From the NCBI RefSeq assembly GCF_000305775.1, contig NC_018866.1, forward strand, positions 2,375,001 to 2,439,000: a DNA stretch of 64,000 nucleotides, written 5' to 3'. The stretch comes from Dehalobacter sp. DCA. GTDB lineage: Bacteria; Bacillota; Desulfitobacteriia; Desulfitobacteriales; Syntrophobotulaceae. Position 1 is the first letter of the stretch, and every line of letters begins with the position of its first letter. The translations under genes and the position numbers were made by a program. Positions 2,418-55,154 of the stretch are shown in pieces. Below the pieces are notes generated by a model that was given only the letters and a program-made list of their open reading frames with translations, was not told the origin of the DNA and did not search any database.

Positions 2418-2783
2418 CTATTTTAATGCATTCACCTGATTTAAGGTTTTGACTACGACATCCTCTTTGAACGGTTTGATAATAAAGGACTTTGCACCAA
2501 GCGCAACAGCCTGCCTTACCATACTTTCCTGTCCCATCGCGGAAACCATCACGACCTTGGCTTTCGGATCAAATTTCATGATTTCAGGTAATGCTTCCAA
2601 ACCGGACATTTCAGGCATCGTAATATCCATGGTAACGACATCAGGTTGCAATTGTTTATAGCTTTCCAGGCCTTCCAACCCGTTCGCAGCCTCACCGACG
2701 ACCTCAAAACCGTTGTTCTGAAGCATATTTCTGATCGCCAGCCGCATAAATGCCGCATCATCTACAATCAGTACTCTAATCAA
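2418..2783 (-). CDS. cheY: CheY-type response regulator
   Basis: A single receiver domain of 121 aa with no output domain. The acidic pair D8/D9 (LIVDDAAF), the phospho-acceptor Asp53 in VTMDITMPEMSG, the VSAMG switch segment and the KPF lysine near residue 104 are all present. The start codon is TTG, preceded by a strong AAGGAGGG. The start overlaps the end of the TetR gene by 8 bp, which suggests coupled translation. Together with cheA and cheW it forms a small chemotaxis unit; whether it controls a flagellar motor or something else cannot be seen here. Confidence 0.93.
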   Translation of the reverse strand: MIRVLIVDDAAFMRLAIRNMLQNNGFEVVGEAANGLEGLESYKQLQPDVVTMDITMPEMSGLEALPEIMKFDPKAKVVMVSAMGQESMVRQAVALGAKSFIIKPFKEDVVVKTLNQVNALK

Positions 2784-3393
2784 TGGACTCCCTCCTTTGA
2801 GGATTAATCTTGTCTTGAATGAAAGAACCCAGGATCGTGTTAACTGCCTCCAGGCATTTTCCCCGCAAAGAGAAAGAATACTGCTGTAGTCTCCACCTCG
2901 CGCAAAGCGCTACGCAGGTTCCGATAATGATATCAGTCAGCATCTCGCTCGATAGTTTCGGAGGTATTTCCCCTGTCTCCTGGCCTCTCTGAATAATTTT
3001 CTTTAAAAAGACAAATCGCGTTGAATAAATGTCTTCGACTTTTGATTTTAACGCTTCGTCATAGCGCATAATTTCCAAAGATAGAAGTACTGCGGTGATT
3101 GACGGATAATTTTCGTAATACGAAGAAAGTGATTCGACAAGAAAAATAATCGCTTCTTCCGTGGTTTCTTTCTGCTGGGCCGTAAGGAACAGGTCGCTGT
3201 CATACTGCGAGAAATAATCCAGGACGCCGAGCATCAGTTCATTTTTGCTTTTAAAATGCTTATAGATGGCTCCCTCGGTGATATTCTGCTTTTTGGCAAT
3301 CTCGCGTGTCGAAATTTGGTGGATTCCGTATTTATCGATCAAATCAATTGTCGTTAAGATGATGCTTTCTTTCCGATGTATTAGTAAATTCAT
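2776..3393 (-). CDS. TetR/AcrR family transcriptional regulator
   Basis: A 205-aa TetR-type repressor. The N-terminal helix-turn-helix is clear (ILTTIDLIDKYGIHQISTRE followed by IAKKQNITEGAIYKHFKSKNELML), and the C-terminal part is the usual helical ligand and dimer domain. I prefer the ATG at 3393, which has GGGAGGAG upstream, to the ATG at 3438, which has no ribosome site and would place an operator-like palindrome (3420-3435) inside the coding region. The gene is first in the unit with cheY, cheA and cheW, an unusual partner for chemotaxis genes. The ligand is unknown. Confidence 0.88.
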   Translation of the reverse strand: MNLLIHRKESIILTTIDLIDKYGIHQISTREIAKKQNITEGAIYKHFKSKNELMLGVLDYFSQYDSDLFLTAQQKETTEEAIIFLVESLSSYYENYPSITAVLLSLEIMRYDEALKSKVEDIYSTRFVFLKKIIQRGQETGEIPPKLSSEMLTDIIIGTCVALCARWRLQQYSFSLRGKCLEAVNTILGSFIQDKINPQRRESID

Positions 3394-3419
3394 ATGGTAA
3401 TAAACTCCTCCCTTGGAAA

Positions 3420-3435
3420 GTAAGTGTTTACTTAC
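3420..3435. promoter_or_regulatory. Inverted repeat, candidate TetR operator
   Basis: GTAAGT-N4-ACTTAC lies just upstream of the preferred TetR start. Perfect 6-bp arms with a 4-bp spacer next to a tetR-type gene suggest an autoregulatory operator. This is inference from position and symmetry only. Confidence 0.45.
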
Positions 3436-3647
3436 CATCTTTTACACCTAATATACTGCATAATTTGTCGAATGTCTACAATTTTTGACATAATATTTTA
3501 AATATTTTGATATATTCTTCGTATGGCTAAATATATATTTGGATTGGCTTACATACAATTTTAGGGAATAAAAAAAGGCTTCCTGTTAAATCAGATAAGC
3601 CTGTTTCCCTATTTAATATTTTTTCGTTGAATTTGGATTAAAGGAAT

Positions 3648-3692
3648 CAAAAAAGAGATTGATGCAATTTGATTGATTCAATCTCTTTTTTG
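3648..3692 (-). terminator. Rho-independent terminator after the HesB-like gene
   Basis: The arms AAAAAAGAGATTGA (3649-3662) and TCAATCTCTTTTTT (3678-3691) form a 14-bp stem with A/T tracts on both sides, so it could work in both directions. It starts 5 bp from the stop of the HesB-like gene. Confidence 0.8.
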
Positions 3693-3696
3693 AGCT

Positions 3697-4026
3697 TTAT
3701 GATTCACAGCTTCCGGAACTGCAGTCCGATCCGCACTCACCTTTTAAGGGTGATTTAATTTCAAATTGGTCCCCATCGGGGGTGTCAATATAATTGATCA
3801 CAACACCCTCAAGAACTTCTGTAAATTGCTTGTCTGCAACAATTTTTAGTCCATGCTGTTCATCAAATATATCGTCAGGGGTCTTTGACTCATCCAGAGT
3901 CATGCCGTAATTCGGCCCCCTTCAGCCAATGCCGGCTACATAGAGCCGTAAGTAAGAATTATCCATATTCTGAGTCACCATGATGTCTATAATTCTCTTG
4001 GCCGCGATTTCAGTAACTTCAAACAT
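3697..4026 (-). CDS. HesB-like selenoprotein (in-frame UGA read as Sec)
   Basis: A 109-codon reading frame of the HesB/IscA-like family, interrupted by one TGA at 3922-3924. The N-terminal part reads MFEVTEIAAKRIIDIM and later LRLYVAGIG; the UGA comes next, then RGPNYGMTLDESK continues in the same frame to a Cys-rich tail (GECGSDCSSGSCES). In HesB/IscA proteins the residue after the Gly-x-Gly of this motif is normally a cysteine, so UGA falls exactly at a cluster or redox cysteine position. A family of HesB-like selenoproteins is known, and this one fits it. AAGGAGGTGCGATT before the ATG at 4026 fixes the start. An automatic caller would start at 3903 and lose the first 41 residues. The protein may take part in Fe-S or redox chemistry; the exact role is unknown. 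Confidence 0.85.
3886..3924 (-). promoter_or_regulatory. Putative bacterial SECIS element
   Basis: On the coding (minus) strand the UGA is followed 19 nt later by a perfect hairpin: TGACTC, loop TGGAT, GAGTCA (3886-3902). The loop contains GG, and it starts 25 nt after the UGA, within the range in which bacterial SECIS loops work. It supports recoding by SelB. Folding was done by eye. Confidence 0.65.
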
Positions 4027-4145
4027 AATCGCACCTCCTTTTTAGTCTGACAATCGTTATCCATATTACATGAATAAGAAATGCTTGTCAAAATGATTGA
4101 AAAACAAATTGAAAAGTTGTAGTATGTCTAATTAATTAGCAGATT

Positions 4146-4694
4146 TTACATATCGTCAAGCAGGTTATTAAACCGGTTTGTTGCCTTGATATATTTCACC
4201 AGTTCGTTAATCATAATTCCGGTTATGATTCCGGTAGGCACTGAAAACAGTAGCATAACCGGCAAGTAAAAAAAGATCCCTGAAAACCTTAGAACCAAGG
4301 CTGCCATGGCCAATTGCCCGAGATTATGGGCTACAGCCCCTGCTACACTGATACCAACCATACTCAGACCTGTAAATAGATGTAACAGCACTGCCATGAC
4401 GATCGCAGCTGCAACAGCGCCTAAAAAGCTCATAAAAAAACCCATGCCGAATAAGGTCCCACTGAGCAGAGAGCCGAGAATTGTCCGCAGTACGGTAATC
4501 TGCAGGGCCGTCTTAAAGTCAAAGACAACCAAAGCCACCAAGGTAATAATATTGGCCAAACCCAGCTTCACTCCCGGTATAGGCAGCGGACTAGGGAACA
4601 TACTCTCAAGATAATGAAGAACGGAGGCTTGCGCCACGAGAATGGCAATAACAGCCAGTTTCTTTGTTGATATCACATTTTTGACATGTTCCAT
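4146..4694 (-). CDS. Gx transporter family membrane protein (ECF S-component-like)
   Basis: A 182-aa protein with about five or six membrane helices. It matches the family once named heptaprenyl diphosphate synthase component I and now called Gx transporter, for example FPSPLPIPGVKLGLANIITL near the N-terminus and VAHNLGQLAMAALVL later. The family is thought to behave as an S-component of ECF transporters. I chose the ATG at 4694 (GGAGGA upstream); the ATG at 4721 would add nine residues. It is divergent from the ecfT-ecfA1-ecfA2 genes that start at 4866, so the pair may form one uptake system. The substrate is unknown. Confidence 0.8.
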   Translation of the reverse strand: MEHVKNVISTKKLAVIAILVAQASVLHYLESMFPSPLPIPGVKLGLANIITLVALVVFDFKTALQITVLRTILGSLLSGTLFGMGFFMSFLGAVAAAIVMAVLLHLFTGLSMVGISVAGAVAHNLGQLAMAALVLRFSGIFFYLPVMLLFSVPTGIITGIMINELVKYIKATNRFNNLLDDM

Positions 4695-4865
4695 AACTGG
4701 ATCTTCCTCCGAATTATGCATTCCCCTTCAGATCATGCAATTTTTATTTGATGTCTTGTTTTAATCGAAGTCTTATTTTAATCAAATAGATTTATTTTAT
4801 TTGCATTAAACCCATATAAGTACTATTATTCATACGAAACAGAAATTGTCAAAGGAGCCTTTTCA

Positions 4866-5663
4866 ATGATCGGTATGAAATTAGGCCAATACGTCTATGG
4901 GAATTCCCTGCTCCATTTATTGGATCCCCGAACGAAAATATTGAGCTGCTTATTGGTCATTTTTTCCGTCATAATTACCGATAATTTGTATTTTCTGCTT
5001 TTCTTGATTCTATTAATGGCTGCTGCCATTATTTCTTCCGGATTAAGCTATCAATTAATTCTGAGCAGTTTATTGAAATTAAGATATCTGCTTCTTTTTA
5101 CGCTGGTCTTCCAGGGATTTCTCACGCCGGGCGAAACTGTTTTGATGGTTGGAAAGCTTAGTATGACCAGAGAAGGTCTGATCTTAGGGCTGATCAATAT
5201 ATCGCGGCTGGTTATTTTATTTTTAGGCTCTATGATTTTACTGATGACAACATCATCCCTCAAATTGTCCGCAGGAATCGAATACTTGCTGCTACCATTA
5301 AGGAAATTACATATTCCTATTCATAATTATACAACCATCCTCAGCATTTCTTTTCGTTTTCTTCCTACTTTATTTGAAGAAGCGGCCATCATAAAAAATG
5401 CTCAAAAATCAAGGGGAGCCCAATTTGATTCATCAAATATTGTTGTCCGGATAAAGAGCTATACTGCCATTCTGATTCCCTTATTTGAAGCGTCCCTGGT
5501 TCGGGCCGCTGACTTGGGTGAAGCGATGGACAGCAGGTGCTTTACTTCCCATCCCAATCAGTTAAGGTTAAACCGTTTACAAATGAAACGTCGGGATATC
5601 CTGTTTTTAATCCAAATGACCGCCGTTTTAGGTACAGGTATTACGATTAGCATTCTTCTATAA
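4866..5663 (+). CDS. ecfT: Energy-coupling factor transporter T component
   Basis: A 265-aa membrane protein of the EcfT/CbiQ family. This component couples the two ATPases to a substrate-binding S protein in vitamin and metal uptake. It has the usual helices at the N-terminus (HLLDPRTKILSCLLVIFSVI), and the family Ala-Arg-Gly coupling region is seen as KNAQKSRGAQFD and AADLGEAMDSR. The start has AAAGGAGCC upstream. It is followed 17 bp later by ecfA1, and ecfA2 overlaps ecfA1, so the three form an operon. No riboswitch was recognised in the 170-bp divergent region in front. Confidence 0.9.
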   Translation: MIGMKLGQYVYGNSLLHLLDPRTKILSCLLVIFSVIITDNLYFLLFLILLMAAAIISSGLSYQLILSSLLKLRYLLLFTLVFQGFLTPGETVLMVGKLSMTREGLILGLINISRLVILFLGSMILLMTTSSLKLSAGIEYLLLPLRKLHIPIHNYTTILSISFRFLPTLFEEAAIIKNAQKSRGAQFDSSNIVVRIKSYTAILIPLFEASLVRAADLGEAMDSRCFTSHPNQLRLNRLQMKRRDILFLIQMTAVLGTGITISILL

Positions 5664-7758: not shown

Positions 7759-9978
7759 ATGCAGAACATGTTTTTTGAACGGGAAGACTGGAAATTATTC
7801 AGAAATATGGAAACCTTGCCCCAAAAAGCGGGGGTGCCGAGAAGTAAATTATCCATGCTGGTTTGCAAGGAACTCACGGATAATGCGCTGGATCTGGGCG
7901 GCGATTGTGAAATCGGTTATGAGGGCGATTTTTTCTATGTTAAGGATCACGGCAGCGGCCTGGATCCGGAATTGTTTTCCATCAACAGGCCGCTACGGTC
8001 CTCCAAGTATTTAAGACTGCCAACCCGAGGGGCATTGGGTAACGGTCTGCGCGTGGTAGCCGGGGCGGTAGTGGCGTCGGGCGGCGAACTCTATGTTTCA
8101 ACCCGAGGCCAAAATTATAAAATCCATTTTCAAAATGACGGTACAGCCTTCCCGGAGAGCTTAAGCGATTATCACGACGCCGGGACAAAGATCAGATTTA
8201 CTTTGGGCGGAATGCCTATTAATTCAAGCTGGGCCAGTCTGGCAATGGAATATGCCCAAGGTGAAACCTACCGGGGAAAGACCTCGCCCTATTGGTATAC
8301 CAGTGAAAACTTTTTTGAATTGTTTCAGTCCTATAGCGGATCGGTTCGGGAACTCATCACGCAGTTCGACGGTTGTACCGGTGGGAAAGCCGGGAAGATA
8401 GCCGCAGAATATACCAAGATGTCCGCCGCAGCCTTGGAGTTTGACGAGACGGAAGCGCTTTTGGCTGAGCTCCGAGCAGCGGTAAAAAATGTGAGTCCCG
8501 AGAGGCTGGGGCGGATCGGCAAGCTGGATGGGTACAGCTGCTATTGTAAATCAGCCGGCACCTTTAAGGCCAGGACCGTCAAAGGGAAACACGACGCGGA
8601 AATAGCGTTTGTCCTTGAAGTGTACGCGATCCCCTCCGATACGCCCCATATAACGGTACTACTCAATAAATCCCCTGTGACCGGCAATGTCAATATCGAC
8701 TACAACAAAAATTTGCTCAGTATTTTCGGCTGCGGTTTAATCCTATGTGTAAAAGCCAAACCTGCCGTTATTCTGATCAATATCATAACGCCCTATATCC
8801 CGATTGTGACAGATGGGAAAGAACCGGATCTCTCGATCATCAGCGACACCATCGCAGAAAGCATTCAAAAGGCGGTCAGCAGAGCCCAAAAATCCCTGCC
8901 GGGCGATGTGGTGGAGCGAAAGAAATCTCAGAAAGAAGTCGTTACGGCATGCTTGGAACAAGCCATTGCTAAAGCCAGCGGCAACGGCGAATACCGTTTC
9001 AGCCTGCGTCAGCTTTATTATGCCGTCCGGCCGTATGTGATCAAGGAAAGCGGCAAAGAACCGGATTACGCTTATTTCTGCACGGAATTGATCAGCAGTT
9101 ATGAAGCACAGCACGGTGACATTCCGCTGATGTACCGGGATGAGCGGGGGACGTTGTATCATCCCCACTCAGGCCAGGATATTCCTATCGGCACGATTGC
9201 GGTGGAAAACTATCAGAAGCCCGTCTGGACGTTCAATAAAATCCTGTATATTGAAAAAGAAGGCTTCTTCAATGTGCTCAAAGAAAAGAAAATCCCGGAG
9301 AAATATGATATGGCTTTACTCACCAGCAAAGGTTATGCCAGCCGGGCGGTCAAGGATTTGCTGGATACGCTCGGGGAGAATTCGGAGGAAGAGATAGCTT
9401 TTTTCTGCATTCATGACGCGGACGCATATGGCACGACGATCTATGATACCCTGCAAAATGAAACCAAAGCCAGGCCCGGCAGAAAAGTGAAGATCATCAA
9501 TCTGGGGCTGGACCCGAAAGAAGCCATCAGCATGGGGCTGGAAATCGAAAAGGCAGGAAAAACAGGCCGCAGGAAGGGCGTAGCCAGCTATATTGATCCC
9601 GAGTGGGAGAGCTGGCTGCAGAACTACAGAGTGGAACTGAACGCCATGAGTACGCCGCAGTTTCTTGCCTGGCTGGAAGGGAAAATCAGGCTTTACGATA
9701 AAGGCAAAGTGATACCGCCCGAAAGTACCATGCTGGAGAGCCTGGACCATAGCCTTCAGGATAAACTCGGCCAAAAGCTTGCAGCGGAAATCTTGGAACA
9801 AAATCACTATGCTGATCAGGTCACTCAAGCAGTCCGGCAAGTTAAAGAACGCTGCGGCGACAGCCAAATTCGGTTAGCTGAGACAGTGCAGGCGGAGCTT
9901 AAGAAGGAACCGGTCAATCTATGGAAGGATGTCATTAAGGCCGTGTCTGAGGATATGATTAAAAATTTTCGTTTTTAA
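7759..9978 (+). CDS. Fused type IIB topoisomerase-like protein (TopoVI-B-like ATPase + Spo11/TopoVI-A-like)
   Basis: A 739-aa protein with two recognisable halves. Residues about 1-370 resemble a GHKL ATPase of the topoisomerase VI B type: ELTDNALD N-box (E38, N42), VKDHGSGLD (D63), RGALGNGLRVV (G91-G96). Residues about 385-739 resemble TopoVI-A/Spo11: a winged-helix segment SLRQLYYAV with the Tyr pair Y420/Y421, then a TOPRIM-like fold with YIEKEGFF (E499/E501) and HDADAYG (D553, D555). The B-then-A order in one chain is that of topoisomerase VIII-like proteins, known mostly from plasmids and integrated elements, where DNA cleavage has been shown for some. The start has AGGAGG. There is no operon partner. 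It sits between an IS1182 end and a structured repeat and is richer in G+C than its flanks. A DNA-cleaving or element-maintenance role is inference; a defence role is possible but unsupported. Confidence 0.78.
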   Translation: MQNMFFEREDWKLFRNMETLPQKAGVPRSKLSMLVCKELTDNALDLGGDCEIGYEGDFFYVKDHGSGLDPELFSINRPLRSSKYLRLPTRGALGNGLRVVAGAVVASGGELYVSTRGQNYKIHFQNDGTAFPESLSDYHDAGTKIRFTLGGMPINSSWASLAMEYAQGETYRGKTSPYWYTSENFFELFQSYSGSVRELITQFDGCTGGKAGKIAAEYTKMSAAALEFDETEALLAELRAAVKNVSPERLGRIGKLDGYSCYCKSAGTFKARTVKGKHDAEIAFVLEVYAIPSDTPHITVLLNKSPVTGNVNIDYNKNLLSIFGCGLILCVKAKPAVILINIITPYIPIVTDGKEPDLSIISDTIAESIQKAVSRAQKSLPGDVVERKKSQKEVVTACLEQAIAKASGNGEYRFSLRQLYYAVRPYVIKESGKEPDYAYFCTELISSYEAQHGDIPLMYRDERGTLYHPHSGQDIPIGTIAVENYQKPVWTFNKILYIEKEGFFNVLKEKKIPEKYDMALLTSKGYASRAVKDLLDTLGENSEEEIAFFCIHDADAYGTTIYDTLQNETKARPGRKVKIINLGLDPKEAISMGLEIEKAGKTGRRKGVASYIDPEWESWLQNYRVELNAMSTPQFLAWLEGKIRLYDKGKVIPPESTMLESLDHSLQDKLGQKLAAEILEQNHYADQVTQAVRQVKERCGDSQIRLAETVQAELKKEPVNLWKDVIKAVSEDMIKNFRF

Positions 9979-30052: not shown

Positions 30053-31420
30053 TTAATGCGTCTGTGGCGCTTGAGCAACCGCCGGATACTTGTACATCTC
30101 CGGCCACTCCAGCCACCATCTATATTTATCGATGCTTTCTGTGCCGTACCCAAACATATCGTCAATTGTTTTCAGCAATTTTGCCGAAGCTTCATTTTTA
30201 CTTCCAATCCAAGTTCCAGCCTGGTGGAACCAGGAATCCTCCTTGGAGTTCCAGGGGCAGACCTTCATGCACCGTCCGCAGGACACTCCGTCTTCGTTAA
30301 GTATCCTGAATTCTGCACATTTTTTCATGTCGCTGTTCCAACGCAGGTATCCGTTATACTCCACAAGATCCGAATCATACGTAATGGATTGGTTCGGACA
30401 GTTTTCAGCGCATTTTTTGCATACTCTGCAGAAATCCTGGAGTCCAAAATCAATCGGTTTGTCGGGTGCCAGCGGCAAATCAGTGGTAACCGCAGCAACC
30501 TTGTGCCGGAACCCCAAGCGGGGATGAATTGAACAGTCACCGGTACGGGAAAGCTCCCCCAACCCCGCTGAAATAACCGCGGGTGGCATGACTGCGTTAT
30601 AATTAAACGCATGCTGCGCCCTGGCATTATACCCAAGGCTCCGGATATAGGTAGCTAAAATAACTGCGATGTTCCCGGTTGCATGATAACTCTTCATAGA
30701 CATTGCACCGCTGATTCCATCATACCCGGTCGATCCCATCATAGTTAGAAGATTTTGGTCAACCATCACGACGATGACGTAAGGCAAGCGTTCTGTTACC
30801 GGTATGACACATTCTTCTACAGGTTTGGTCATCAAACCAGCCTTATCCGTAAGCTTCTGGGAATAATAAGCATATTCCGGCATCTTGCCGATACCGACTT
30901 CATCAGCGCGCAAAAAATAGGCGGCATCTTTAATATGCTGGGACATTTGTTCCGGATCAGGGATCTCCAGTTTTTTGGGAGACGGCTTTCCTTCTACCGC
31001 AGCGGGCGGAGCAACAAACATGCCTGCATTGGCTATTGCCGCTCCAAAAGGATGCCTGAAAAAGAAACTCAAAGACGCCGCTTGTGTCTTTTTATTAGGA
31101 AGCAGCCCCCTGGTAGCCAAATTGAATCCCATATCAGCTTCGCTGAAGTTCTTAACTTTTCCGACAATTTTTGTGGTACCCAACCACTGATCATTGCTTT
31201 CTACAAAACGTACTGTCGCACTGCCGTAGTCATGTTCGGGATGAAGCTTTGACCATTGTCCCTTCGCTGCAGCAGTATACTTCAGACTTGCTCCGGCTGC
31301 GTTGGCCACTTTGGCTGGAGCTGATATCGCTCCAATCACTCCCATCGCAGAGGCTGCAACGCCGGCTTTGAGAAAATTCCTGCGACTTAGCTGATACTTT
31401 TTCTCTTGTTCATTAATCAC
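30053..31420 (-). CDS. rdhA: Reductive dehalogenase catalytic subunit, CprA-like (RdhA1)
   Basis: A 455-aa corrinoid/iron-sulfur enzyme that removes halogen from organic acceptors outside the membrane. The Tat signal is [17 protein letters not shown]. The corrinoid-binding core is followed by two cluster motifs, [12 protein letters not shown] and, after a lone Cys, [12 protein letters not shown]. The [20 protein letters not shown] segment is the family core and resembles CprA of Desulfitobacterium. The start is uncertain: GTG at 31420 lines up with RdhA7 and RdhA3, while TTG at 31441 overlaps the rdhB1 stop. It follows rdhB1 in B-A order. The substrate cannot be read from sequence; CprA relatives act on chlorophenols. 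Confidence 0.95.
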
Positions 31421-31437
31421 CGTATTTTCACATCCTA

Positions 31438-31758
31438 TCAAGCTTGTAATTCACCTGTATTCCCCGCTTTTTTCACACCAATGAAGCCCAGCAGGCGGGC
31501 TTGAACAACGGCAAGAACCACAGATATCCCCAGAAACAGGAATATCGCTGTGCTTGTGGCTTTGACATGCCCAACCGATGCGTTAATGTAAACAAAGGAA
31601 ATCCCCATCCAGGTAATCCCATACCAAATAACAAATAGGGCCCAATTTACTACTGTTTTCCACATTTGTTCACGTTTAGCACGAGGTTTAATAAATAAAA
31701 TACCCGCTAAGAATAATACACCTGCTAAAAAAATTAAGAATGTACCCATCATTTTCAC
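31438..31758 (-). CDS. rdhB: Reductive dehalogenase membrane anchor (RdhB1)
   Basis: A 106-aa protein with three hydrophobic helices ([53 protein letters not shown]) that fits the CprB/RdhB anchor family. It fixes RdhA1 to the outer face of the membrane. The CTCCC complement of GGGAGG precedes its start. It is first in the unit, ahead of rdhA1, and is nearly identical to RdhB3 at 39519-39839 (differences at a few residues only). Confidence 0.92.
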
Positions 31759-36671: not shown

Positions 36672-38042
36672 TTAATGTTTAAAGACAGGTCCTGAAAGGT
36701 CGGGGGGTGTATACTTATACAATTCGGGCCACTCCAGCCACCATTTATATTTCTCTATCTGTTCCGTTCCGTACCCGAACATATCGTCAATTGCTTTCAG
36801 CAATTTTGAAGAAGATTCGTTTTGACTGCCTACCCACGTTCCCGCCTGGTGGAACCAGGAGTCCTCTTTGGAGTTCCATGGGCAAACCTTCATACACCGT
36901 CCACAGCCTTGACCATTTTCGTTAATTATTCTAAGTTGCGTACATGTATCACTATTGAGGTTCCATCGTATATATCCGTTGTACTCGGTCTGATCCGTAT
37001 CAGTCGAAATTGATTGGGTCGGGCAGTTTTCCGCACATTTTTTACATACCCTGCAAAACTCCTGGATCCCAAAATCAATTGGTTTATCAGGTGCCAGTGG
37101 TAAATCAGTGGTCACAGCAGCTGCTTTATGCCTGAATCCTAAACGGGGATGAATTGTGCAGTCACCGGCCCGGGACATTTCCCCTAAGCCTGCAGATATG
37201 AGAACCGTCGGCATTACTACAGCATAATTGACAAAATGACTCGCCCGGGCATTATATCCAAGGGCACGGATATAGCTTGCCAAAATGACAGCAATGTTTG
37301 CGACCGCATGATAACCCCTTAGTGACTGCGAGCCGCTAATCCCATCATATCCGGTCGACGCCAGCATGGTTTCCAAGTGTTGGTCAACCATCACGGCGAT
37401 GACATAGGGCAGCCGTTCTGTTACCGGTTTAACACACTCCGACACCGGTTTGTTCAATAGCCCCGCCGGGTCAACAACCTTCTCAGAATAATATCCGAAC
37501 TCAGGCATTTTTCCGATAGCGACATCGTCGGCGCGCAAAAAATAGGCAGTATCTTTAATATGTTGTGACATCTGCTCAGGATCAGGTATCGGTAATTTTT
37601 TCGGGGCGGCCGGTCCTTCAACTACAGGGTCTGGCCCTACTAAAACAACCGTCATCAGCTGTGCCAATGGAAAAGGATGGGTAGGAAGCGCTAAAGACGC
37701 CAGCTGTATCCGGGGATCTGGGAGCAACCCCCTGGTAGCACGATTAAATCCATTATCTGCTTCACTGACATTTTTGATTTTCCCAACTATTTTTGAGGTA
37801 CCCAGCCACTGATCATTGCTTTCTACATAACGTATGCTGGCACTGCCGAGGTCATGTACCGGATGCAATTTGGACCATTGTCCTTTCGCTGCAGCAGTAT
37901 ACCCCAGACTTCCTCCCGCCGCATTTGCCGCCTTAGAAGGAGTTTTGACCACTCCAACTACGCCCAAGGCTATGGCTGTGGCACCGGCTTTGAGAAAATT
38001 CCTGCGGCTTAGCTGGAACTTCCTGTCGTGTTTATTAATCAC
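36672..38042 (-). CDS. rdhA: Reductive dehalogenase catalytic subunit, CprA-like (RdhA2), without own anchor
   Basis: About 456 aa. The Tat signal is [17 protein letters not shown], and cluster motifs [12 protein letters not shown] and [12 protein letters not shown] are intact. It is close to RdhA1 and RdhA3 over the core ([19 protein letters not shown]). The start is taken as GTG at 38042 by comparison with its relatives; TTG at 38060 is the alternative. It stands 28-46 bp after rdhA3 with no rdhB between, so it is the third gene of rdhB3-A3-A2 and may share RdhB3. In place of the [10 protein letters not shown] partner loop VSCG it has QGCG. The substrate is unknown. Confidence 0.94.
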
Positions 38043-38088
38043 CGTTTTATTCACATCCAATCAGCTTATTGTTTTAACTTTCGGATTG

Positions 38089-39501
38089 TTACGGTTTATT
38101 TTTCCCTAATGCTGAAAAAATGGGATCCGGCGGCAAAGGTTCAGTCAGAATGCTTACAGGTGGAAGCTTATACAGTTCCGGCCATTCCAGCCACCATTTA
38201 TATTTATCGATGGTTTCTGTTCCATACCCGAACATATCATCAATCGATTTTAATAATTTTGATGATGTTTCACTTTTGCTTCCAATCCAGGTACCAGCTT
38301 GATGGAACCAGGATTCCTCTTTGGAATTCCAGGGACAGACCTTCATGCATCGTCCGCAGCATACCCCGTCCTCATTACTAGCCCGAAATTCGGCACATTT
38401 GTTCGTGTCATTGTTCCAACGCAAATAGCCGTTATACTGACCCATATCACTATCAATGTTGATAGCTCCGGCAGGACAATTTTCCGCACATTTCTTGCAT
38501 ATGCGGCAGAAGTCGAGTAACCCAAAATCAATTGGCTTATCCGGTGCAAGCGGCAAATCCGTAGTGACCGCAGCAACTTTATGGCGGAATCCTAACCGGG
38601 GGTGAATCGCGCAATCGCCTGTACGGGATAGTTCTCCCAACCCTGCGGCGATAATAACAGGCGGCATGACACCGTTATAATCCACAGCATAATTAGCCCT
38701 GGCGTTATATCCCAGATTCCGGATATATTGGGCCATAATAGCAGCAATAACCCCTGTCGCATGATAGCCTCTGAAGGACTGGGAGATGCTAATTGCGTCA
38801 TAACCCGTCGAAGCGAGCATTGTCTCCAAATGCTGGTCAATCATGACCACGATCGCATACGGCAGGCGTTCGGTAACCGGCCTAACTAATTGTTCCCTGG
38901 GAAATTCCACATACTGTCTCCCCGGAAAAGGCGGATAGATACATTTGGTACTATAATAGGCATACGAGGGCATCCTGCCTATACCTACGTCATCAGCCCG
39001 CAAAAAGTAGGCAACATCCTTGATGTGTTGTGACATTTGTTCAGGATCAGGGATCTCCATTTTCTTTGGGGCAGGAATACCTTCCAGGAAACCTGCTACC
39101 ATCCCGGCTCCCATTATAATTGCACCACCAAAAGGATCCTTCGTATTCATGTTATAAAGCCCCAATTGGCCCCTTTGACTGACTTTTCCCGCGGCAATCT
39201 GTTCAAATCCGCCATCGTATTCACTCGGATTTTTGATTGGGCCTATTATCTTTGAGGTTCCCAACCACTGGTCGTTATGTTCTACAAAATGTATTGTTGC
39301 GCTGCCCATGTCATGCACAGGATGCAGTTTGGACCACTGTCCCTTTGCCGCAGGCGTATACTTCATGCTCTCGCCAACCGCTCCCGCCACTATGGTAGGT
39401 GCTTTCAGGGCCGTCGCTACTCCCAGGGCTGCAGCTCCGGCACCAGCTTTGAGAAAATCCCTGCGGCCTAACTGAAACTTTTTCTCTTGTTCATTAATCA
39501 C
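38089..39501 (-). CDS. rdhA: Reductive dehalogenase catalytic subunit, CprA-like (RdhA3)
   Basis: 470 aa starting at GTG (AGGATGTG upstream). The Tat signal is LGRRDFLKAGAGAAALG, and cluster motifs [12 protein letters not shown] and [13 protein letters not shown] are present. It differs from RdhA1 and RdhA2 in a longer middle loop (YPPFPGRQYVEFPREQLVRP), a region that lines the active site in known RdhA structures, so a different substrate range is likely (inference). It follows rdhB3 by 17 bp and precedes rdhA2. Confidence 0.95.
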   Translation of the reverse strand: MINEQEKKFQLGRRDFLKAGAGAAALGVATALKAPTIVAGAVGESMKYTPAAKGQWSKLHPVHDMGSATIHFVEHNDQWLGTSKIIGPIKNPSEYDGGFEQIAAGKVSQRGQLGLYNMNTKDPFGGAIIMGAGMVAGFLEGIPAPKKMEIPDPEQMSQHIKDVAYFLRADDVGIGRMPSYAYYSTKCIYPPFPGRQYVEFPREQLVRPVTERLPYAIVVMIDQHLETMLASTGYDAISISQSFRGYHATGVIAAIMAQYIRNLGYNARANYAVDYNGVMPPVIIAAGLGELSRTGDCAIHPRLGFRHKVAAVTTDLPLAPDKPIDFGLLDFCRICKKCAENCPAGAINIDSDMGQYNGYLRWNNDTNKCAEFRASNEDGVCCGRCMKVCPWNSKEESWFHQAGTWIGSKSETSSKLLKSIDDMFGYGTETIDKYKWWLEWPELYKLPPVSILTEPLPPDPIFSALGKNKP

Positions 39502-41448: not shown

Positions 41449-43053
41449 CTATCCAGTGATCAACGCCATTTTTCTCATATTATGAGCGATGCAATGTAAT
41501 CCCCACTCAATTTTAACCTTTTCTAGCCCTTTTAACAGGAATCTTCGCATACCGTGATTCCCTTTAATGTCTCCAAAGACGCTTTCAACCTCGACCGGCC
41601 TCAAGCTCCTCATGCGCAAACCTTCTTCTGAACACAAATTCCTGCGGGCCTGTTCTTTATAGGCATTCAGTTTGCGATTGACATATATTCTTCTGTTAGC
41701 GTATGGATCGGATGACTTCACGCACTGGTTCCGATGAGGACACCCGGAACAATTCAGGCATTCATAGATTCGGATCAAACTCCTATAGCCATTGTCACTT
41801 TTTTGGTGCCGCTCGTATAAGAAAATGAGTGTTCTCCCATAACCGCAGATATATTCATCATTTTCATGGTCATAGGTGAAGTTCTGTGGTTTCGTTATGT
41901 CTTCTTTCCATTTCTTACTGGCTTCTTTGTGGAAGGTATTATATTTGACATAAGACACAAGCTTTTTCTCCTGCAGATAGTCGTAATTTTCTTCGCTGCC
42001 ATAGCCGGCATCGGCAATAATATTCTTTGGTAATTCCCCATGCAGGAGCGTTTTTAATTCTTCCAGGTGATCCTTCATACAGCTGGTATCGCCCGGTCTC
42101 TGATGAACACTGTAACCGACCACAAACTGGTTCTCCGTCCCGATCTGGACATTGTAACCTGGCTTTAACTGACCGTTTTTCATATGGTCTTCTTTCATTC
42201 GCATAAAGGTGGCATCGTGATCTGTCTTGGAGTAACTGTTTCTTTCTTCCAGGATCAGTTCTTGCTGTTCATATTTCTGCATTCTTGGCAGATAATCTTT
42301 CGTAAGGGTGTTTCTTGTTTTCTTTAACTTTTTGGTTTCAGCATCTACTGTCTCTTCTTCCGATTTCTTAGCCAGTCTCTCGTCAATTTTCCTTACGGCT
42401 TCTTCAATAGCCTCTGAGTCAATGGGCTTGCCATTGCCTAGCTCTTCTAAATCACTGTCGCCGTATTCCGCATTTTCTTCTTCATTGATCTGATCGATTT
42501 CTTTAAATAATTCCCGGCATTTCTCCCTTAACGCTTCTTTATAGCGCTTCGTGGATTTGCCCCATACCCAACTGTATTTATTGGCATTGGCCTCAATTTT
42601 TGTCCCGTCTAAAAAATAATTTTCCAGCTTGATGTATTTTTCTTTGACTAAGAGTTCAATAACTTCAGCAAATACTTCTAGAATAACCTCTTTCATCCGT
42701 TCACTCCGGAAGCGGTTAACTGACATGAAATCCGGCTGATTGCCGCCGCACAGCCACATATACATAATATTTTCACGGGCCGCTTTTGCTATCCGGCGGC
42801 ATGAAAAAACCCTGTCCGTATACGCATAAACCAATAACTTGGTCATCATGACAGGGTGAAAGCTGGAACGGCCGCCTCCAGGATATTTGGCAAACAAGGG
42901 TTCGAGATTCATGCGATCGATAGCACGATTCACAACTCGGACGACATGGTTTTGAGGAATCAGGCTGTCGATGCTTAACGGCAGTGTTTGTTGTTCCTGC
43001 ACATAAGGTTTAAATACTTTCTTGGTATGTACTTTCTGCCCTTTCTTAGACAT
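41449..43053 (-). CDS. IS1182-family transposase
   Basis: A 534-aa DDE transposase with an N-terminal DUF772-like part (LPLSIDSLIPQNHVVRVVNR) and catalytic residues in YFLDGTKIEANANKY (Asp), IIADAGYGSEEN (Asp) and VESVFGDIKGNHGMRRF (Glu). A Cys group (CLNCSGCPHRNQC) lies before the C-terminal catalytic block. The frame is complete. The middle of this protein is the parent of the remnant at 7440-7605. Confidence 0.93.
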   Translation of the reverse strand: MSKKGQKVHTKKVFKPYVQEQQTLPLSIDSLIPQNHVVRVVNRAIDRMNLEPLFAKYPGGGRSSFHPVMMTKLLVYAYTDRVFSCRRIAKAARENIMYMWLCGGNQPDFMSVNRFRSERMKEVILEVFAEVIELLVKEKYIKLENYFLDGTKIEANANKYSWVWGKSTKRYKEALREKCRELFKEIDQINEEENAEYGDSDLEELGNGKPIDSEAIEEAVRKIDERLAKKSEEETVDAETKKLKKTRNTLTKDYLPRMQKYEQQELILEERNSYSKTDHDATFMRMKEDHMKNGQLKPGYNVQIGTENQFVVGYSVHQRPGDTSCMKDHLEELKTLLHGELPKNIIADAGYGSEENYDYLQEKKLVSYVKYNTFHKEASKKWKEDITKPQNFTYDHENDEYICGYGRTLIFLYERHQKSDNGYRSLIRIYECLNCSGCPHRNQCVKSSDPYANRRIYVNRKLNAYKEQARRNLCSEEGLRMRSLRPVEVESVFGDIKGNHGMRRFLLKGLEKVKIEWGLHCIAHNMRKMALITG

Positions 43054-43606: not shown

Positions 43607-43714
43607 TTAAGAAATAACATGGTAAGACTGAACTTCACTTATTACAATCATGATGGCGACCGCCGAAATTAATAGTATAAATACTAAATCTCCCATGCTT
43701 AATTTTCTTTTCAT
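43607..43714 (-). CDS. 35-aa membrane peptide after rdhC4
   Basis: A short gene whose ATG overlaps the rdhC4 stop as ATGA. The product has a basic N-terminus (MKRKLSMGD), a single hydrophobic helix VFILLISAVAIMIVISE and a short tail ending in Ser. The same gene follows rdhC5 and rdhC6 with the same overlap, length and core, so it is selected for. Topology by charge predicts the N-terminus inside. The function is unknown; association with the RdhA/B/C complex is inference. Confidence 0.8.
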   Translation of the reverse strand: MKRKLSMGDLVFILLISAVAIMIVISEVQSYHVIS

Positions 43715-44967
43715 TCTTCTACCCCGATGTTATTTAATTCTTTTGCTGATATTAATTCGATTCCTTCGGTCCCCTGAACCTTTTTCAATTTGGCTTTTTC
43801 TAGAATTTCTTTTTCCAAAATCCCCATGATATATTTCCTGGGGCGCAAAATGATCTCATTGAGTATGAGCCCCGGACAGAAAAACCTGCACCAGAATCTG
43901 CTGATAAAGAAGGAACTAAAAATCACGACCGGCAAGATAAGCCACTGAATGCCGAACCCCTGCCGGCCAAATAAAGTGGCAAATGGCTCATACCCGGCAA
44001 AACTCGGTGATTTTGTCAGGAATGCCCCTATGAGTGCTAAGTAGATCAATGCATACCTTATTTTAGCCGCTTTGGCTTCGACTGCTTTATTACAGCATTT
44101 GAATTTACCGCCGCCTACTTTGGCCGTGATTTCCTGCAAAGCGCCAAACGGACAAAGCCAGAAGCAGTAAACATTCTTTCCTAAGATAAAGGTGATCACC
44201 GGGATTCCGATTAAGAGGATATACCAAACGAGGTTTTCACGAATAGACGGGAAATTCCCCATGAGAAGTCCGGTAATATTTGCAAGCGAAATGGGCGTAT
44301 TATATTGGAAACCAATGATGACTAAACTTCCTAAAAGGACAAGCCAGCGTAATTTTTTTTGTTTGAATGCCACGCCAATCACCATCAGGATGACCAACGC
44401 TATGACGGCAATTTCCTTGGATCCGAACTTAAACGGCTCCACTTCATCCTTAACATTCAGCCCGAACTCGCTCCTGGCTACGGCATGGCTTCCCTGGGAA
44501 ACCGCTTTGGCTATCCCCCTTGTAGAAAAGGTTGCGCCCGATATCCGGTCGATATCCTTGTTAATGGATAAAGGATCTGTGATGTCTTTTCCGATAAATC
44601 TTTCCAAATATTTCTGATCTAGAATATTATCGATAAATGATGGTGTATCCTTGTGTGCAGCGATAACCGTCCCGACAATTTTTCCTTGCAGGTTAATTCC
44701 GGTAACCATCTTGATCGGACCGCCATAAGCAACCGCTTGCTCGATTACGACGTAGCCTATTTTTTCTTCCTTACCATCTTTGCTCTGTTTATTTGCTTCA
44801 TAAATAAGAGGGGAAGACGCAATCTTTTGAAAAGATTGCGCTTCCGAAAAAACTTGATTCATAAACGGTATGATATTGTTATCTGTATGAGTCCAACCGA
44901 AACCTAACGTTATGAGGAATATAACTGCTGCTGCAAACACAATGATTTTATTTGCTGAGTTTTTCAT
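43711..44967 (-). CDS. rdhC: PceC-like membrane FMN-binding protein (RdhC4)
   Basis: A 418-aa NosR/NirI-like membrane protein. Order: N-terminal helix, extracytoplasmic FMN-binding domain with the flavinylation motif DRISGATFSTRG, then about five helices and two polyferredoxin-like motifs, CFWLCPFGALQE and CRFFCPGL. It may move electrons from menaquinol to RdhA through covalent FMN (proposed for PceC). ApbE encoded at 28372-29397 could attach the FMN. AGGAGC precedes the ATG. It is third in rdhA4-B4-C4. Confidence 0.92.
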   Translation of the reverse strand: MKNSANKIIVFAAAVIFLITLGFGWTHTDNNIIPFMNQVFSEAQSFQKIASSPLIYEANKQSKDGKEEKIGYVVIEQAVAYGGPIKMVTGINLQGKIVGTVIAAHKDTPSFIDNILDQKYLERFIGKDITDPLSINKDIDRISGATFSTRGIAKAVSQGSHAVARSEFGLNVKDEVEPFKFGSKEIAVIALVILMVIGVAFKQKKLRWLVLLGSLVIIGFQYNTPISLANITGLLMGNFPSIRENLVWYILLIGIPVITFILGKNVYCFWLCPFGALQEITAKVGGGKFKCCNKAVEAKAAKIRYALIYLALIGAFLTKSPSFAGYEPFATLFGRQGFGIQWLILPVVIFSSFFISRFWCRFFCPGLILNEIILRPRKYIMGILEKEILEKAKLKKVQGTEGIELISAKELNNIGVEE

Positions 44968-47792: not shown

Positions 47793-47900
47793 TTAAGAAA
47801 CAGCATGATAAGCCTGCCATTCACTTATTACAATCATGATAGCGACCGCAGATATCAATAAGATAAATACTATATCCCTCATGCTTAATTTGCTGTTCAT
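47793..47900 (-). CDS. 35-aa membrane peptide after rdhC5
   Basis: The second copy of the small gene. It begins MNSKLSMRD, contains VFILLISAVAIMIVISE and ends QAYHAVS. Its ATG overlaps the rdhC5 stop by ATGA. The core helix is unchanged from the copy at 43607 although the flanking residues differ, which argues for a real protein. Confidence 0.82.
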   Translation of the reverse strand: MNSKLSMRDIVFILLISAVAIMIVISEWQAYHAVS

Positions 47901-49168
47901 TCTTTTACCTCGATGTTATTCAATTCATTTGCAGATCTTGCTTCGATTCCTATCCCTTTGATTCCTTCTATTCCCCGAACCTTTTTCAATTTTGCTTTTT
48001 TAAAGATTCCTTTTTCTAAAATCCCCATAATATATTTCCTGGGACGTAAAATGATCTCATTGAGTATCAAGCCTGGACAGAAAAACCTGCACCAGAACCT
48101 GCTGATAAAGAAAGAACTAAAAATCACGACCGGCAAAATAAGCCACTGGATACCGAATCCCTGCAGGCCAAACAAAGTGGCGAATGGCTCGTAACCGGCA
48201 AAACTCGGTGTCTTTGTCAGAAATGCCCCTATCAGTGCCAGGTAGATGAGTATATATCTTATTTTAGCCGCTTTTGCTTCGATCCTTTTATTGCAGCATT
48301 TGAATTTACCGCCGCCTACTTTTGCAGTTATTTCCTGCAAAGCGCCAAACGGGCAAAGCCAGAAACAGTAAACATTCTTTCCTAATATGAAGGTGATAAT
48401 AGGGATTCCGATTAAGAGGATATACCAAACGAGGTTTTCACGGATGGACGGGAGATTCCCCATTAATAATGCGGCAATGTTGGCAAGGGAAATCGATGTA
48501 TTGTATTGAAAGCCAATGAAGACCAAGCTGCCTATCAGGGCAATCCAGCGCAGTTTTCTTTTTTTGAATGCGACACCAATTACCGCCAGGATGACCAAAG
48601 CGATGACTGCAATTTCCTTTGCCCCGAACTTAAACGGCTCTACTTCATCCTTCACATCCAGCCCGAACTCGCCCCTGGCTACGGCATGGCTTCCCTGGGA
48701 AATAGCTTTGGCAATCCCGCGGGAAGAAAATGTGGCGCCGGAAATACGGTCAATATCCTTGTCAATGGACAAGGGGTCCGTGATGTCTTTGCCGATGAAT
48801 TTCTCCAGGTATTTCTGGTCGATGACCTTATCGATAAAGGATGGCGTATCCTTATGGGCGGCAATAACCGTTCCTACAATCTTTCCTTGCAGGTCAATTC
48901 CGGTGACCATTTTGATCGGGCCGCCATAAGCAACCGCTTGCTCGATTACGACGTAGCCTATTTTTTCTTCTTTGCCGTTTTGATCTTTCGTTATTCCTTC
49001 GTAAATAACAGGGGAAGACGCAATCTTTTGAAAAGATTGCGCTTCCGGAAAAACTTGATTCATAAAAGGTATGATATCACGATCAGTATGAGTCCAACTG
49101 AAACCCAACGTTAGGAGGAATATAACTGTTGCTGCAAAAACAATAATATTACTTAAAAATTTTTTCAT
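47897..49168 (-). CDS. rdhC: PceC-like membrane FMN-binding protein (RdhC5)
   Basis: About 423 aa from the ATG at 49168; same architecture as RdhC4 with DRISGATFSSRG, CFWLCPFGALQE and CRFFCPGL. The start region is odd. The ribosome site AGGAGC is followed by an ATG that opens a four-codon frame (ATGAGAAAATTATGA) whose stop overlaps the ATG at 49168; the in-frame upstream ATG at 49195 precedes the ribosome site. Reinitiation from the mini-frame, or use of 49195, are the two options. It is third in rdhA5-B5-C5. Confidence 0.9.
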   Translation of the reverse strand: MKKFLSNIIVFAATVIFLLTLGFSWTHTDRDIIPFMNQVFPEAQSFQKIASSPVIYEGITKDQNGKEEKIGYVVIEQAVAYGGPIKMVTGIDLQGKIVGTVIAAHKDTPSFIDKVIDQKYLEKFIGKDITDPLSIDKDIDRISGATFSSRGIAKAISQGSHAVARGEFGLDVKDEVEPFKFGAKEIAVIALVILAVIGVAFKKRKLRWIALIGSLVFIGFQYNTSISLANIAALLMGNLPSIRENLVWYILLIGIPIITFILGKNVYCFWLCPFGALQEITAKVGGGKFKCCNKRIEAKAAKIRYILIYLALIGAFLTKTPSFAGYEPFATLFGLQGFGIQWLILPVVIFSSFFISRFWCRFFCPGLILNEIILRPRKYIMGILEKGIFKKAKLKKVRGIEGIKGIGIEARSANELNNIEVKE

Positions 49169-49216
49169 AATTTTCTCATTTTTTGCTCCTGTCAAAAGGT
49201 CTGCCTTACCCTGATG

Positions 49217-49546: not shown

Positions 49547-50851
49547 TTACTTATTCCAGAAGTTCTTTGTCGCATCTGAAGCACTCACTTTTCCGTATCC
49601 AAACAGATCATCAAAGAACCTTAGGATTGGACGGGCTGGCGTTCTTGTTCCCAGCTTCACGAAATCATGGTGCCATTCATCAAGTTTGTTATATGGACAT
49701 ACTTTAACGCAGATTCCACAGTCAGTTCCAACTTGTGCCCATTGGGACAAGCATTTTTCGGCATCTAAAGCCCATTTTTTTACACCGCCACTTGTGGATA
49801 CCGTTATAGTTTTAAAACTTGGTTCTTTGTCATGCGATATCGCTTGCGAAGGACAAGCGTCGGCGCACTTCCTGCAGGTTTTACAAAATTCTGCAACCCC
49901 GAAAGTAATCGGTTTATCAACAGCTAACGGCAAATTGGTAAAGATCTTGCACAATCTGACTCTTGGTCCATATTTAGGCGTAATGAGGATCCCAATTCTG
50001 CTAAGTTCTCCTAATCCTGCGTGAACGCCCAAGGGAACACTTAATGCTGTATCATTGCCGCAAGGTATGGCCCGATAACCTAATCTTCTCAAGAAAGTTG
50101 CCACCTTATGAGCCGTTACACCCATATTGGAGTAGATATTGCCGGCAGAAGCACCTTCAAGCAGGGCCGGAGCAGCTTGAAAACTTTCATAATTCATTTC
50201 AAAAGCCATTACGATTACGTTTGTCGGTTCAAACGGGAAGACATTTGGTTTTAAAGTCGCCGTCTTCGGGTCAGTGATAACATCCGTGTAGACCCATCTA
50301 TCATCATAGGGTGCGATTCCTACTAAATCTGCTCCAAAAAAGGTGGCTGCCTTCTTTACCGCTTGGCTTGCAAGTTCAGGCGTTTGAAATTTGTAAGCAT
50401 TAGGACTTACTTTTCCTTCCCAGTTATATAATCCTAAATTCGCGAATCCAGGAGCATGATAGCCATTGACATCATCCTCAACGGACCAAGCTGCATCATC
50501 CATAGCATATTCAAGCTGACCCCAGCCCTCTCCGCCTTCTTGAGGGATTTCACCGGTTTTTTTCCCGACATACTTAAAAAAGTCTGCTTGAACAATTTGA
50601 TCCCCACTAAAAGCTCTCATAAACACAGTATTCTTTTGATTATAACGTTTGTAATCACTCGAAATCTCCATCGGCATTGTATCATGTTGTTCAATGCCTG
50701 CAGCATTCGCTACGCTGTTTACACCAGGAAGCTCGTAACCTAACAAAGCCGCACCGGCTGCCCCAACCCCCATTCCTATAGATTTTTTCAAGAAGTTCCG
50801 CCTACTCAGTCTTAACTTTTTTCCATCAGAATCCTGTTTGACCAAAGTCAT
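49547..50851 (-). CDS. rdhA: Reductive dehalogenase catalytic subunit, A-B-C type (RdhA5)
   Basis: 434 aa with Tat signal [19 protein letters not shown]; cluster motifs CKTCRKCADACP and CGICVKVCPYNK; C-terminus FFDDLFGYGKVSASDATKNF. It is a paralogue of RdhA4 and RdhA6 with different loops in the first half (RAFSGDQIVQADFFKYVGKK), so a distinct substrate is possible. AAGGAGGC precedes the ATG. The regulator gene immediately upstream on the same strand is broken by an IS, which may leave this unit silent or deregulated. Confidence 0.95.
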   Translation of the reverse strand: MTLVKQDSDGKKLRLSRRNFLKKSIGMGVGAAGAALLGYELPGVNSVANAAGIEQHDTMPMEISSDYKRYNQKNTVFMRAFSGDQIVQADFFKYVGKKTGEIPQEGGEGWGQLEYAMDDAAWSVEDDVNGYHAPGFANLGLYNWEGKVSPNAYKFQTPELASQAVKKAATFFGADLVGIAPYDDRWVYTDVITDPKTATLKPNVFPFEPTNVIVMAFEMNYESFQAAPALLEGASAGNIYSNMGVTAHKVATFLRRLGYRAIPCGNDTALSVPLGVHAGLGELSRIGILITPKYGPRVRLCKIFTNLPLAVDKPITFGVAEFCKTCRKCADACPSQAISHDKEPSFKTITVSTSGGVKKWALDAEKCLSQWAQVGTDCGICVKVCPYNKLDEWHHDFVKLGTRTPARPILRFFDDLFGYGKVSASDATKNFWNK

Positions 50852-53778: not shown

Positions 53779-53886
53779 TTAAGAGATAGCGTGATAAGCC
53801 TGCCATTCACTTATTACAATCATGATAGCGACCGCAGATATTAATAAGATAAATACTATATCCCTCATGCTTAATTTGCTGTTCAT
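53779..53886 (-). CDS. 35-aa membrane peptide after rdhC6
   Basis: The third copy: MNSKLSMRD, then VFILLISAVAIMIVISE, ending QAYHAIS. Its ATG overlaps the rdhC6 stop by ATGA. It differs from the rdhC5-linked copy at one residue (Ile for Val before the last Ser), and the whole 3' region here is shared with that unit. Confidence 0.82.
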   Translation of the reverse strand: MNSKLSMRDIVFILLISAVAIMIVISEWQAYHAIS

Positions 53887-55154
53887 TCTTTTACCTCGAT
53901 GTTATTCAATTCATTTGCAGATCTTGCTTCGATTCCTATCCCTTTGATTCCTTCTATTCCCGGAACCTTTTTCAATTTTGCTTTTTTAAAGATTCCTTTT
54001 TCTAAAATCCCCATAATATATTTCCTGGGACGTAAAATGATCTCATTGAGTATCAAGCCTGGACAGAAGAACCTGCACCAGAACCTGCTGATGAAGAAAG
54101 AACTAAAAATCACGACCGGCAAAATAAGCCACTGGATACCGAATCCCTGCCGTCCAAATAAAGTAGCAAATGGTTCATAACCGGCAAAACTCGGTGTCTT
54201 TGTTAGAAATGCCCCTATCAGTGCCAGGTAGATGAGTATATATCTTATTTTAGCCGCTTTTGCTTCGATCCTTTTATTGCAGCATTTGAATTTACCGCCG
54301 CCTACTTTTGCAGTTATTTCCTGCAAAGCGCCAAACGGACAAAGCCAGAAGCAGTAAACATTCTTTCCTAAGATAAAGGTGATCACCGGGATTCCGATTA
54401 AGAGGATATACCAAACGAGGTTTTCACGAACAGACGGGAAATTCCCCATGAGAAGTCCGGTAATATTTGCAAGCGAAATGGGCGTATTATATTGGAAACC
54501 AATGATGACTAAACTTCCTAAAAGGACAAGCCAGCGTAATTTTTTTTGTTTGAATGCCACGCCAATCACCATCAGGATGACCAACGCTATGACGGCAATT
54601 TCCTTGGATCCGAACTTAGACGGTTCCACTTCATCCTTAACATTCAGCCCGAACTCGCTCCTGGCTACGGCATGACTTCCCTGGGAAACCGCTTTGGCTA
54701 TCCCCCTTGTAGAAAAGGTTGCGCCCGATATCCGGTCGATATCCTTGTTAATGGACAAGGGATCCGTGATATCTTTGCCGATGAATTTCTCCAGGTATTT
54801 CTGTTCAATGACCTTATCGATAAAGGATGGCGTATCCTTATGGGCGGCAATAACCGTCCCTACAATTTTTCCTTTAAGATCGATTCCGGTGACCATTTTA
54901 ATCGGACCGCCATAAGCAACTGCTTGCTCGATTACGACGTAGCCTATTTTTTCTTCCTCACCGTTTTTCCCTTGGATTCTTCCTTCATAAATAACAGGGG
55001 AAGACGCAATCTTTTGAAAAGATTGCGCTTCCGGAAAAACTTGATTCATAAAAGGTATCATATCATTATCTGTATGAGTCCAACTCAAACCTAACGTTAG
55101 GAGGAATACAACTGCTGCTGCAAATACAATCATTTTATTTGCTGTGTTTTTCAT
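53883..55154 (-). CDS. rdhC: PceC-like membrane FMN-binding protein (RdhC6), mosaic
   Basis: 423 aa with DRISGATFSTRG, CFWLCPFGALQE and CRFFCPGL, as in RdhC4 and RdhC5. The sequence is a mosaic. The middle (from NKDIDRISGATFSTRG to PVITFILGKN) follows RdhC4 almost base for base. The C-terminus (from NKRIEAKAAKIRYILI) and the following small gene follow RdhC5. Gene conversion between units is the simplest reading. AGGAGC precedes the ATG. Confidence 0.92.
   Translation of the reverse strand: MKNTANKMIVFAAAVVFLLTLGLSWTHTDNDMIPFMNQVFPEAQSFQKIASSPVIYEGRIQGKNGEEEKIGYVVIEQAVAYGGPIKMVTGIDLKGKIVGTVIAAHKDTPSFIDKVIEQKYLEKFIGKDITDPLSINKDIDRISGATFSTRGIAKAVSQGSHAVARSEFGLNVKDEVEPSKFGSKEIAVIALVILMVIGVAFKQKKLRWLVLLGSLVIIGFQYNTPISLANITGLLMGNFPSVRENLVWYILLIGIPVITFILGKNVYCFWLCPFGALQEITAKVGGGKFKCCNKRIEAKAAKIRYILIYLALIGAFLTKTPSFAGYEPFATLFGRQGFGIQWLILPVVIFSSFFISRFWCRFFCPGLILNEIILRPRKYIMGILEKGIFKKAKLKKVPGIEGIKGIGIEARSANELNNIEVKE

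Follow-up and report, generated by a model that had tools for sequence, protein, structure and literature searches.

A HesB/IscA-family gene of Dehalobacter sp. DCA with an in-frame UGA is predicted to encode a selenoprotein

RESULTS AND DISCUSSION

A HesB-like frame runs across an in-frame UGA

In the 64,000 nucleotides of the Dehalobacter sp. DCA genome analyzed here (the window), a HesB-like frame of 109 codons extends on the minus strand from an ATG at 4026-4024 to a TAA at 3699-3697 (Table 1), and its sole interruption upon translation is an in-frame TGA at codon 35 (3924-3922). With this TGA read as selenocysteine (Sec), the product is MFEVTEIAAKRIIDIMVTQNMDNSYLRLYVAGIGURGPNYGMTLDESK...KGECGSDCSSGSCES. 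A preliminary description of this DNA had placed the gene at 3697-4026 with a continuous HesB-like frame on both sides of the TGA, and had predicted that automatic calling would return a truncated 68-aa protein; the coordinates and the frame are correct, the strand, which it did not give, is minus, and the table-11 ORF list indeed shows just the 68-aa piece at 3697-3903, opened by an internal ATG, making the locus a clean example of a gene halved by a default caller. Its claim that a strong ribosome site accompanies the upstream start alone also holds, as a Shine-Dalgarno sequence precedes the ATG at 4026 and none could be read at the internal ATG at 3903.

A consensus scan placed a possible promoter upstream, which is merely suggestive because six such matches were found in the region against 3.4 expected. 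Directly past the stop lies an AT-rich perfect inverted repeat, AAAAAAGAGATTGA...TCAATCTCTTTTTT, a probable terminator whose 15-nt loop exceeds the limits of our terminator scan. The downstream neighbor is a TetR-like regulator (2776-3438), and on the other side lie a small protein with no NCBIfam match (4146-4721) and a CbiQ-similar component of an ECF-type transporter (4866-5663). The possible promoter, the inverted repeat and the lack of an obvious functional relation to these neighbors suggest that the hesB-like gene probably stands alone as a monocistronic unit. Among relatives, the longest ORFs flanking hesB-like genes vary; at one Sec-form locus (L091, 1498-1815; L and G numbers are our handles for loci and genomes), an ORF at 2-1156 just upstream was recognized by eye as cysteine-desulfurase-like. 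A codon-usage scan of the window for in-frame TGAs flanked on either side by coding signal returned three candidates including the hesB-like gene, the other two of which overlap long opposite-strand ORFs.

Table 1. Features of the hesB-like locus, in window coordinates
Feature	Position	Strand	Description	Basis
hesB-like selenoprotein gene (predicted)	3697..4026	minus	109 aa with UGA as Sec (Sec35), TAA stop	translation, profiles, homologues
UGA codon 35, predicted Sec	3922..3924	minus	aligned with the conserved Cys of A-type carriers, GIGURGP	alignment
Predicted SECIS, whole	3877..3921	minus	three-way junction of GCCG/CGGC and the apical hairpin, closed by the lower stem AGGGG/CCCCU	fold
Predicted bSECIS apical hairpin	3886..3902	minus	UGACUC-UGGAU-GAGUCA	fold, core conservation, covariation
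Shine-Dalgarno	4034..4040	minus	AAGGAGG, 7 nt ahead of ATG	read from sequence
Possible promoter	4063..4091	minus	TTGACA-17-TAATAT, 10/12 consensus matches	consensus scan
Inverted repeat, probable terminator	3649..3691	minus	14 bp, perfect, AT-rich	read from sequence

The encoded protein is predicted to have the fold of A-type iron-sulfur carriers

The protein scores 69.1 bits against TIGR00049 (iron-sulfur cluster assembly accessory protein; cut-off 58.8) and matches Pfam Fe-S_biosyn above its cut-off, but falls far below the equivalog cut-offs for ErpA, IscA and SufA. It combines a HesB/IscA domain with the motif GIGURGP, the UxGP signature by which HesB-like selenoproteins are defined. Nevertheless, it remains under the curated cut-offs of both NCBI models for such proteins, with 42.9 bits for TIGR01911 (HesB_rel_seleno; cut-off 66.35) and 60.7 bits for NF038090 (IscA_HesB_Se; cut-off 85), and the other class members scanned, both Sec and Cys forms, likewise score below these two cut-offs. 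As default calling splits the gene and both models leave it under threshold, annotation of the class may lack many copies.

By sequence, the nearest experimental structures are 2apn (E 1.8e-11), 1nwb and IscA. An AlphaFold2 model (pLDDT 84) adopts an IscA/SufA-like fold, and Foldseek matched it to IscA/SufA structures (1s98, 1x0g, 2d2a) at E of ~1e-6 to 1e-5 and TM of ~0.7. Sec35 aligns with the conserved Cys of Escherichia coli IscA (GCSG), so that the TGA does fall at the motif cysteine as first proposed. The C-terminal CxC cluster ligands are absent; the tail instead reads CGSDCSSGSC and carries Cys98, Cys102 and Cys107, of which Cys98 alone is invariant in the alignment.

A bacterial SECIS element follows the UGA

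Exactly 19 nt after the UGA begins the perfect hairpin with a GG loop that the preliminary description had pointed out, with six pairs, a 5-nt loop starting 25 nt past the UGA and G at loop position 2. Folding the 55 nt from the UGA onward gives a minimum free energy (MFE) of -21.4 kcal/mol, compared to -11.4 +/- 2.4 for shuffled sequences (z = -4.15), with none of 200 shuffles folding as well. Published bSECIS criteria (PMC13188914) call for a loop of 3-9 nt located 16-37 nt from the UGA, an upper stem of 4-16 bp, G in the first two loop positions and an MFE of <= -7.5, and the hairpin falls within all of them (UGGAU, 6 bp, 25 nt, -21.4 kcal/mol). The window had no Rfam matches at gathering scores.

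Comparison with homologues indicates that Sec forms conserve the hairpin at synonymous sites and that it erodes among Cys forms. The SECIS core CUCUGGANGAG, i.e., CTCTGGA[TAC]GAG, occurs in 53/54 Sec forms versus 7/36 non-Sec forms, counts that are not independent because the sequences are related. On the tree, three independent pairs contrasting Sec and the SECIS motif lie on starred (well-supported) branches, of which two agree on average and none disagrees, a number too small for significance. Within the hairpin, Sec forms use CTG for Leu (54/54), GAG for Glu (54/54) and always ACT for Thr, compared to mixed synonymous usage in Cys forms. The stem pair 24:38 covaries (G-C in 48 Sec forms, A-U in 5), and Sec forms show A-U, G-U or G-C at pair 25:37. 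Weaker counterparts of the lower stem, which is strong in this gene, occur in the nearest Sec relatives (L030, L038, L045), and L046 and L033 lack it.

Selenocysteine and cysteine alternate across the class

Homologues were found in 57 of the 82 genomes of the class. We read 91 loci and counted 90, leaving out a distant paralogue in the gene's own genome (L022). In the alignment with homologues, a check proposed earlier, the motif column holds nothing but UGA or Cys codons apart from a single Ser (TGA in 54, TGC/TGT in 35, AGT in 1). Placed on the tree, the Sec/Cys states require at least 4 changes versus 28 with shuffled labels. Within the class, Sec and Cys forms with the SECIS intact, decaying or lost make up a dense natural series in which the exchange of Sec and Cys at an iron-sulfur ligand can be studied.

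Four near-identical copies from the same genus differ at 25 sites, which fall at codon positions 1/2/3 in the proportions 4/2/19 and lie on both sides of the UGA. None lies within gene positions 78-156, a stretch of 79 nt comprising the UGA and the SECIS; by our own estimate, such a variation-free stretch has a chance of ~0.001 if substitutions are even. The third-position bias on either side of the UGA and the invariant stretch together indicate selection on the entire 109-aa frame as protein, with additional constraint on the RNA near the UGA. On the tree, a long branch (0.93) leads to the genus clade, and the protein departs from near-constant positions (e.g., Gln87 for Gly and Tyr40 for Phe) and has Arg36 following Sec35.

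Further variants were observed among the paralogues. Genome G050 carries two Sec-containing HesB-like paralogues (L030 and L110), one with a Cys-rich tail and one without. The excluded L022 (own genome, C1:158442-158606) is a Cys-type HesB paralogue reading GCGCKGP that remains under all NCBIfam cut-offs. The single Ser form (L095, AGT, ESSDGP) has apparently lost the ligand and groups near other divergent Cys paralogues.

The genome can decode selenocysteine

A search for selA, selB, selC and selD, the first check recommended for this locus, recovered all four. The selC gene encodes tRNA-SeC with a TCA anticodon and lies near selB (376 bits), while selA (547 bits) adjoins selD (402 bits). The selD gene contains its own in-frame TGA, reading GUGCK; it is itself a selenoprotein gene (L018, C1:1518436-1519356), and the Sec pathway therefore depends on its own product. 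Two formate dehydrogenase loci in the genome also carry an in-frame TGA, as previously reported for Dehalobacter genomes (PMC4751268). We conclude that this genome is able to decode Sec.

Across the class, a hand tally found a selA match in 47/50 genomes with a Sec form versus 1/7 Cys-only genomes (Fisher p = 1.5e-5, ignoring kinship among genomes), with two of the 50 (G048, G049) counted as Sec-form genomes by the TGA flag alone. In the three Sec-form genomes where selA went undetected (G030, G041, G042), completeness is 78-90%. Genomes of the gene's own family that hold a Cys form only (G059-G062) are without selA.

A HesB/IscA-family selenoprotein gene is the best explanation of the locus

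On these sequence comparisons, we consider it very probable that the locus holds a functional and probably monocistronic gene whose product is a HesB/IscA-family selenoprotein, an A-type Fe-S carrier with Sec at UGA codon 35. The earlier reading as a HesB-like selenoprotein drew support from every in silico check proposed with it, including folding downstream of the UGA, and neither of the two outcomes named as counting against it, a lack of Sec machinery or random sequence at the UGA and ahead of it, was found. We propose that ribosomes would start at the ATG at 4026, that SelB, Sec-tRNA-Sec and the downstream SECIS hairpin would insert selenocysteine at the UGA, and that translation would then continue past Sec35 to the TAA at 3697. 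Insertion of Sec at codon 35 is strongly supported, and the organism presumably incorporates it. Sec35 would replace the conserved first Cys ligand of IscA/ErpA/SufA and, together with Cys98, Cys102 and Cys107, probably bind iron or an Fe-S cluster and then pass it on, an assignment put forward only as likely, since the CGC motif of IscA is missing from the C-terminus. Family membership and the modeled fold point to a role as an A-type carrier, and the selenolate may have a redox role.

Other readings of the UGA were weighed against the same evidence. Since a single-base change from TGC or TGT suffices to create TGA, and Cys homologues are common, the gene could in principle be dead, its Cys codon mutated, or its sequence misread. 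However, the identical TGA recurs in four same-genus genomes and in 54/90 homologues, the genus copies have diverged mostly by synonymous substitutions on both sides of it, a SECIS follows it and the Sec machinery is present; we rejected this explanation on the recurrence of the UGA in independent genomes and the codon-position bias, and its probability is negligible. It is extremely unlikely that the UGA is a true stop with the 68-aa ORF at 3697-3903 translated separately from its internal ATG. Mechanical gene calling does list that ORF, yet its start has no ribosome site and Leu takes the place of its Met in several Sec forms (e.g., L030, L091), both of which led us to discard the idea; the 34 N-terminal codons are conserved as protein, and the UGA lies inside the conserved family domain.

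The data require readthrough as such and do not fix the identity of the residue in silico, which leaves room for near-cognate suppression of the UGA by an ordinary amino acid such as Trp or Cys. We regard this as very unlikely: the column alternates with Cys and not with Trp, the SECIS is strict at synonymous sites in Sec forms but relaxed in Cys forms, the full Sec machinery is encoded, the UGA form is nearly absent from genomes without selA, and a family member from Methanococcus maripaludis has been labeled with 75Se (PMC11097638).

Relation to known HesB-like selenoproteins

The preliminary description was right that a HesB-like selenoprotein family exists: such proteins have featured in surveys since at least 2005 (PMC1088965, PMC1242214, PMC1794560) and ranked sixth in frequency among bacterial selenoprotein families in 2016, with 86 organisms (PMC5029168). 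As HesB-like selenoproteins are already described, the present gene belongs to a known family. With that family (TIGR01911, NF038090; UxGP, PMC13188914) it shares a small A-type-carrier-like protein, Sec at the motif Cys followed by xGP (here URGP), a bSECIS right after the UGA, an anaerobic host and existing Cys homologues; it differs in its sub-cut-off scores, C-terminal Cys-rich tail, Arg after Sec and long SECIS closing stem. What is modestly new is a branch under both NCBI HesB-selenoprotein cut-offs, with Arg after Sec and a SECIS whose three-way junction is closed by a long stem. The A-type carriers IscA, SufA and ErpA (PDB 1s98, 1x0g, 2d2a, 2apn) share the fold and the position of the first conserved Cys, but have Cys in place of Sec and CGC at the C-terminus where CGSDCSSGSC stands here.

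A HesB-like Cys protein of Desulfitobacterium hafniense with a remnant SECIS has been interpreted as a Sec-to-Cys conversion (PMC1794560, Fig. 4b). The same pattern is seen here in the Cys forms that partly keep the hairpin (core in 7/36), whereas the Sec form described here is intact. In M. maripaludis, 75Se labeling showed that the HesB-like selenoprotein MMJJ_08070 carries selenium (PMC11097638), although this member belongs to an archaeon, whose Sec system and SECIS are of the archaeal type. Disruption of the family member left nitrogen fixation in the M. maripaludis mutant unimpaired (PMC11097638) and thus offers no functional clue. A tentative and rather unlikely extension is that the Desulfitobacteriia branch with UxGP and the Cys-rich tail might form a distinct selenoprotein subfamily of A-type carriers with its own role, e.g., as a selenolate-ligated cluster carrier, beside a co-occurring tail-less Sec subfamily, as in the single genome encoding both L030 and L110.

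The window contains an organohalide-respiration gene cluster

Elsewhere in the window, at least five reductive dehalogenase genes (TIGR02486) occur within ~30 kb on the minus strand (30053-31441, 36672-38060, 38089-39501, 49547-50851 and 59202-60611). Among them lie genes for NosR/RnfG-like proteins (43711-44967, 47897-49195 and 53883-55154), and the two sets together constitute an organohalide-respiration gene cluster, within which an IS1182-family transposase is encoded on the minus strand (41449-43053). Closer to the hesB-like gene, a 739-aa protein encoded on the plus strand (7759-9978) has one stretch similar to topoisomerase VI subunit A, fused to other sequence.
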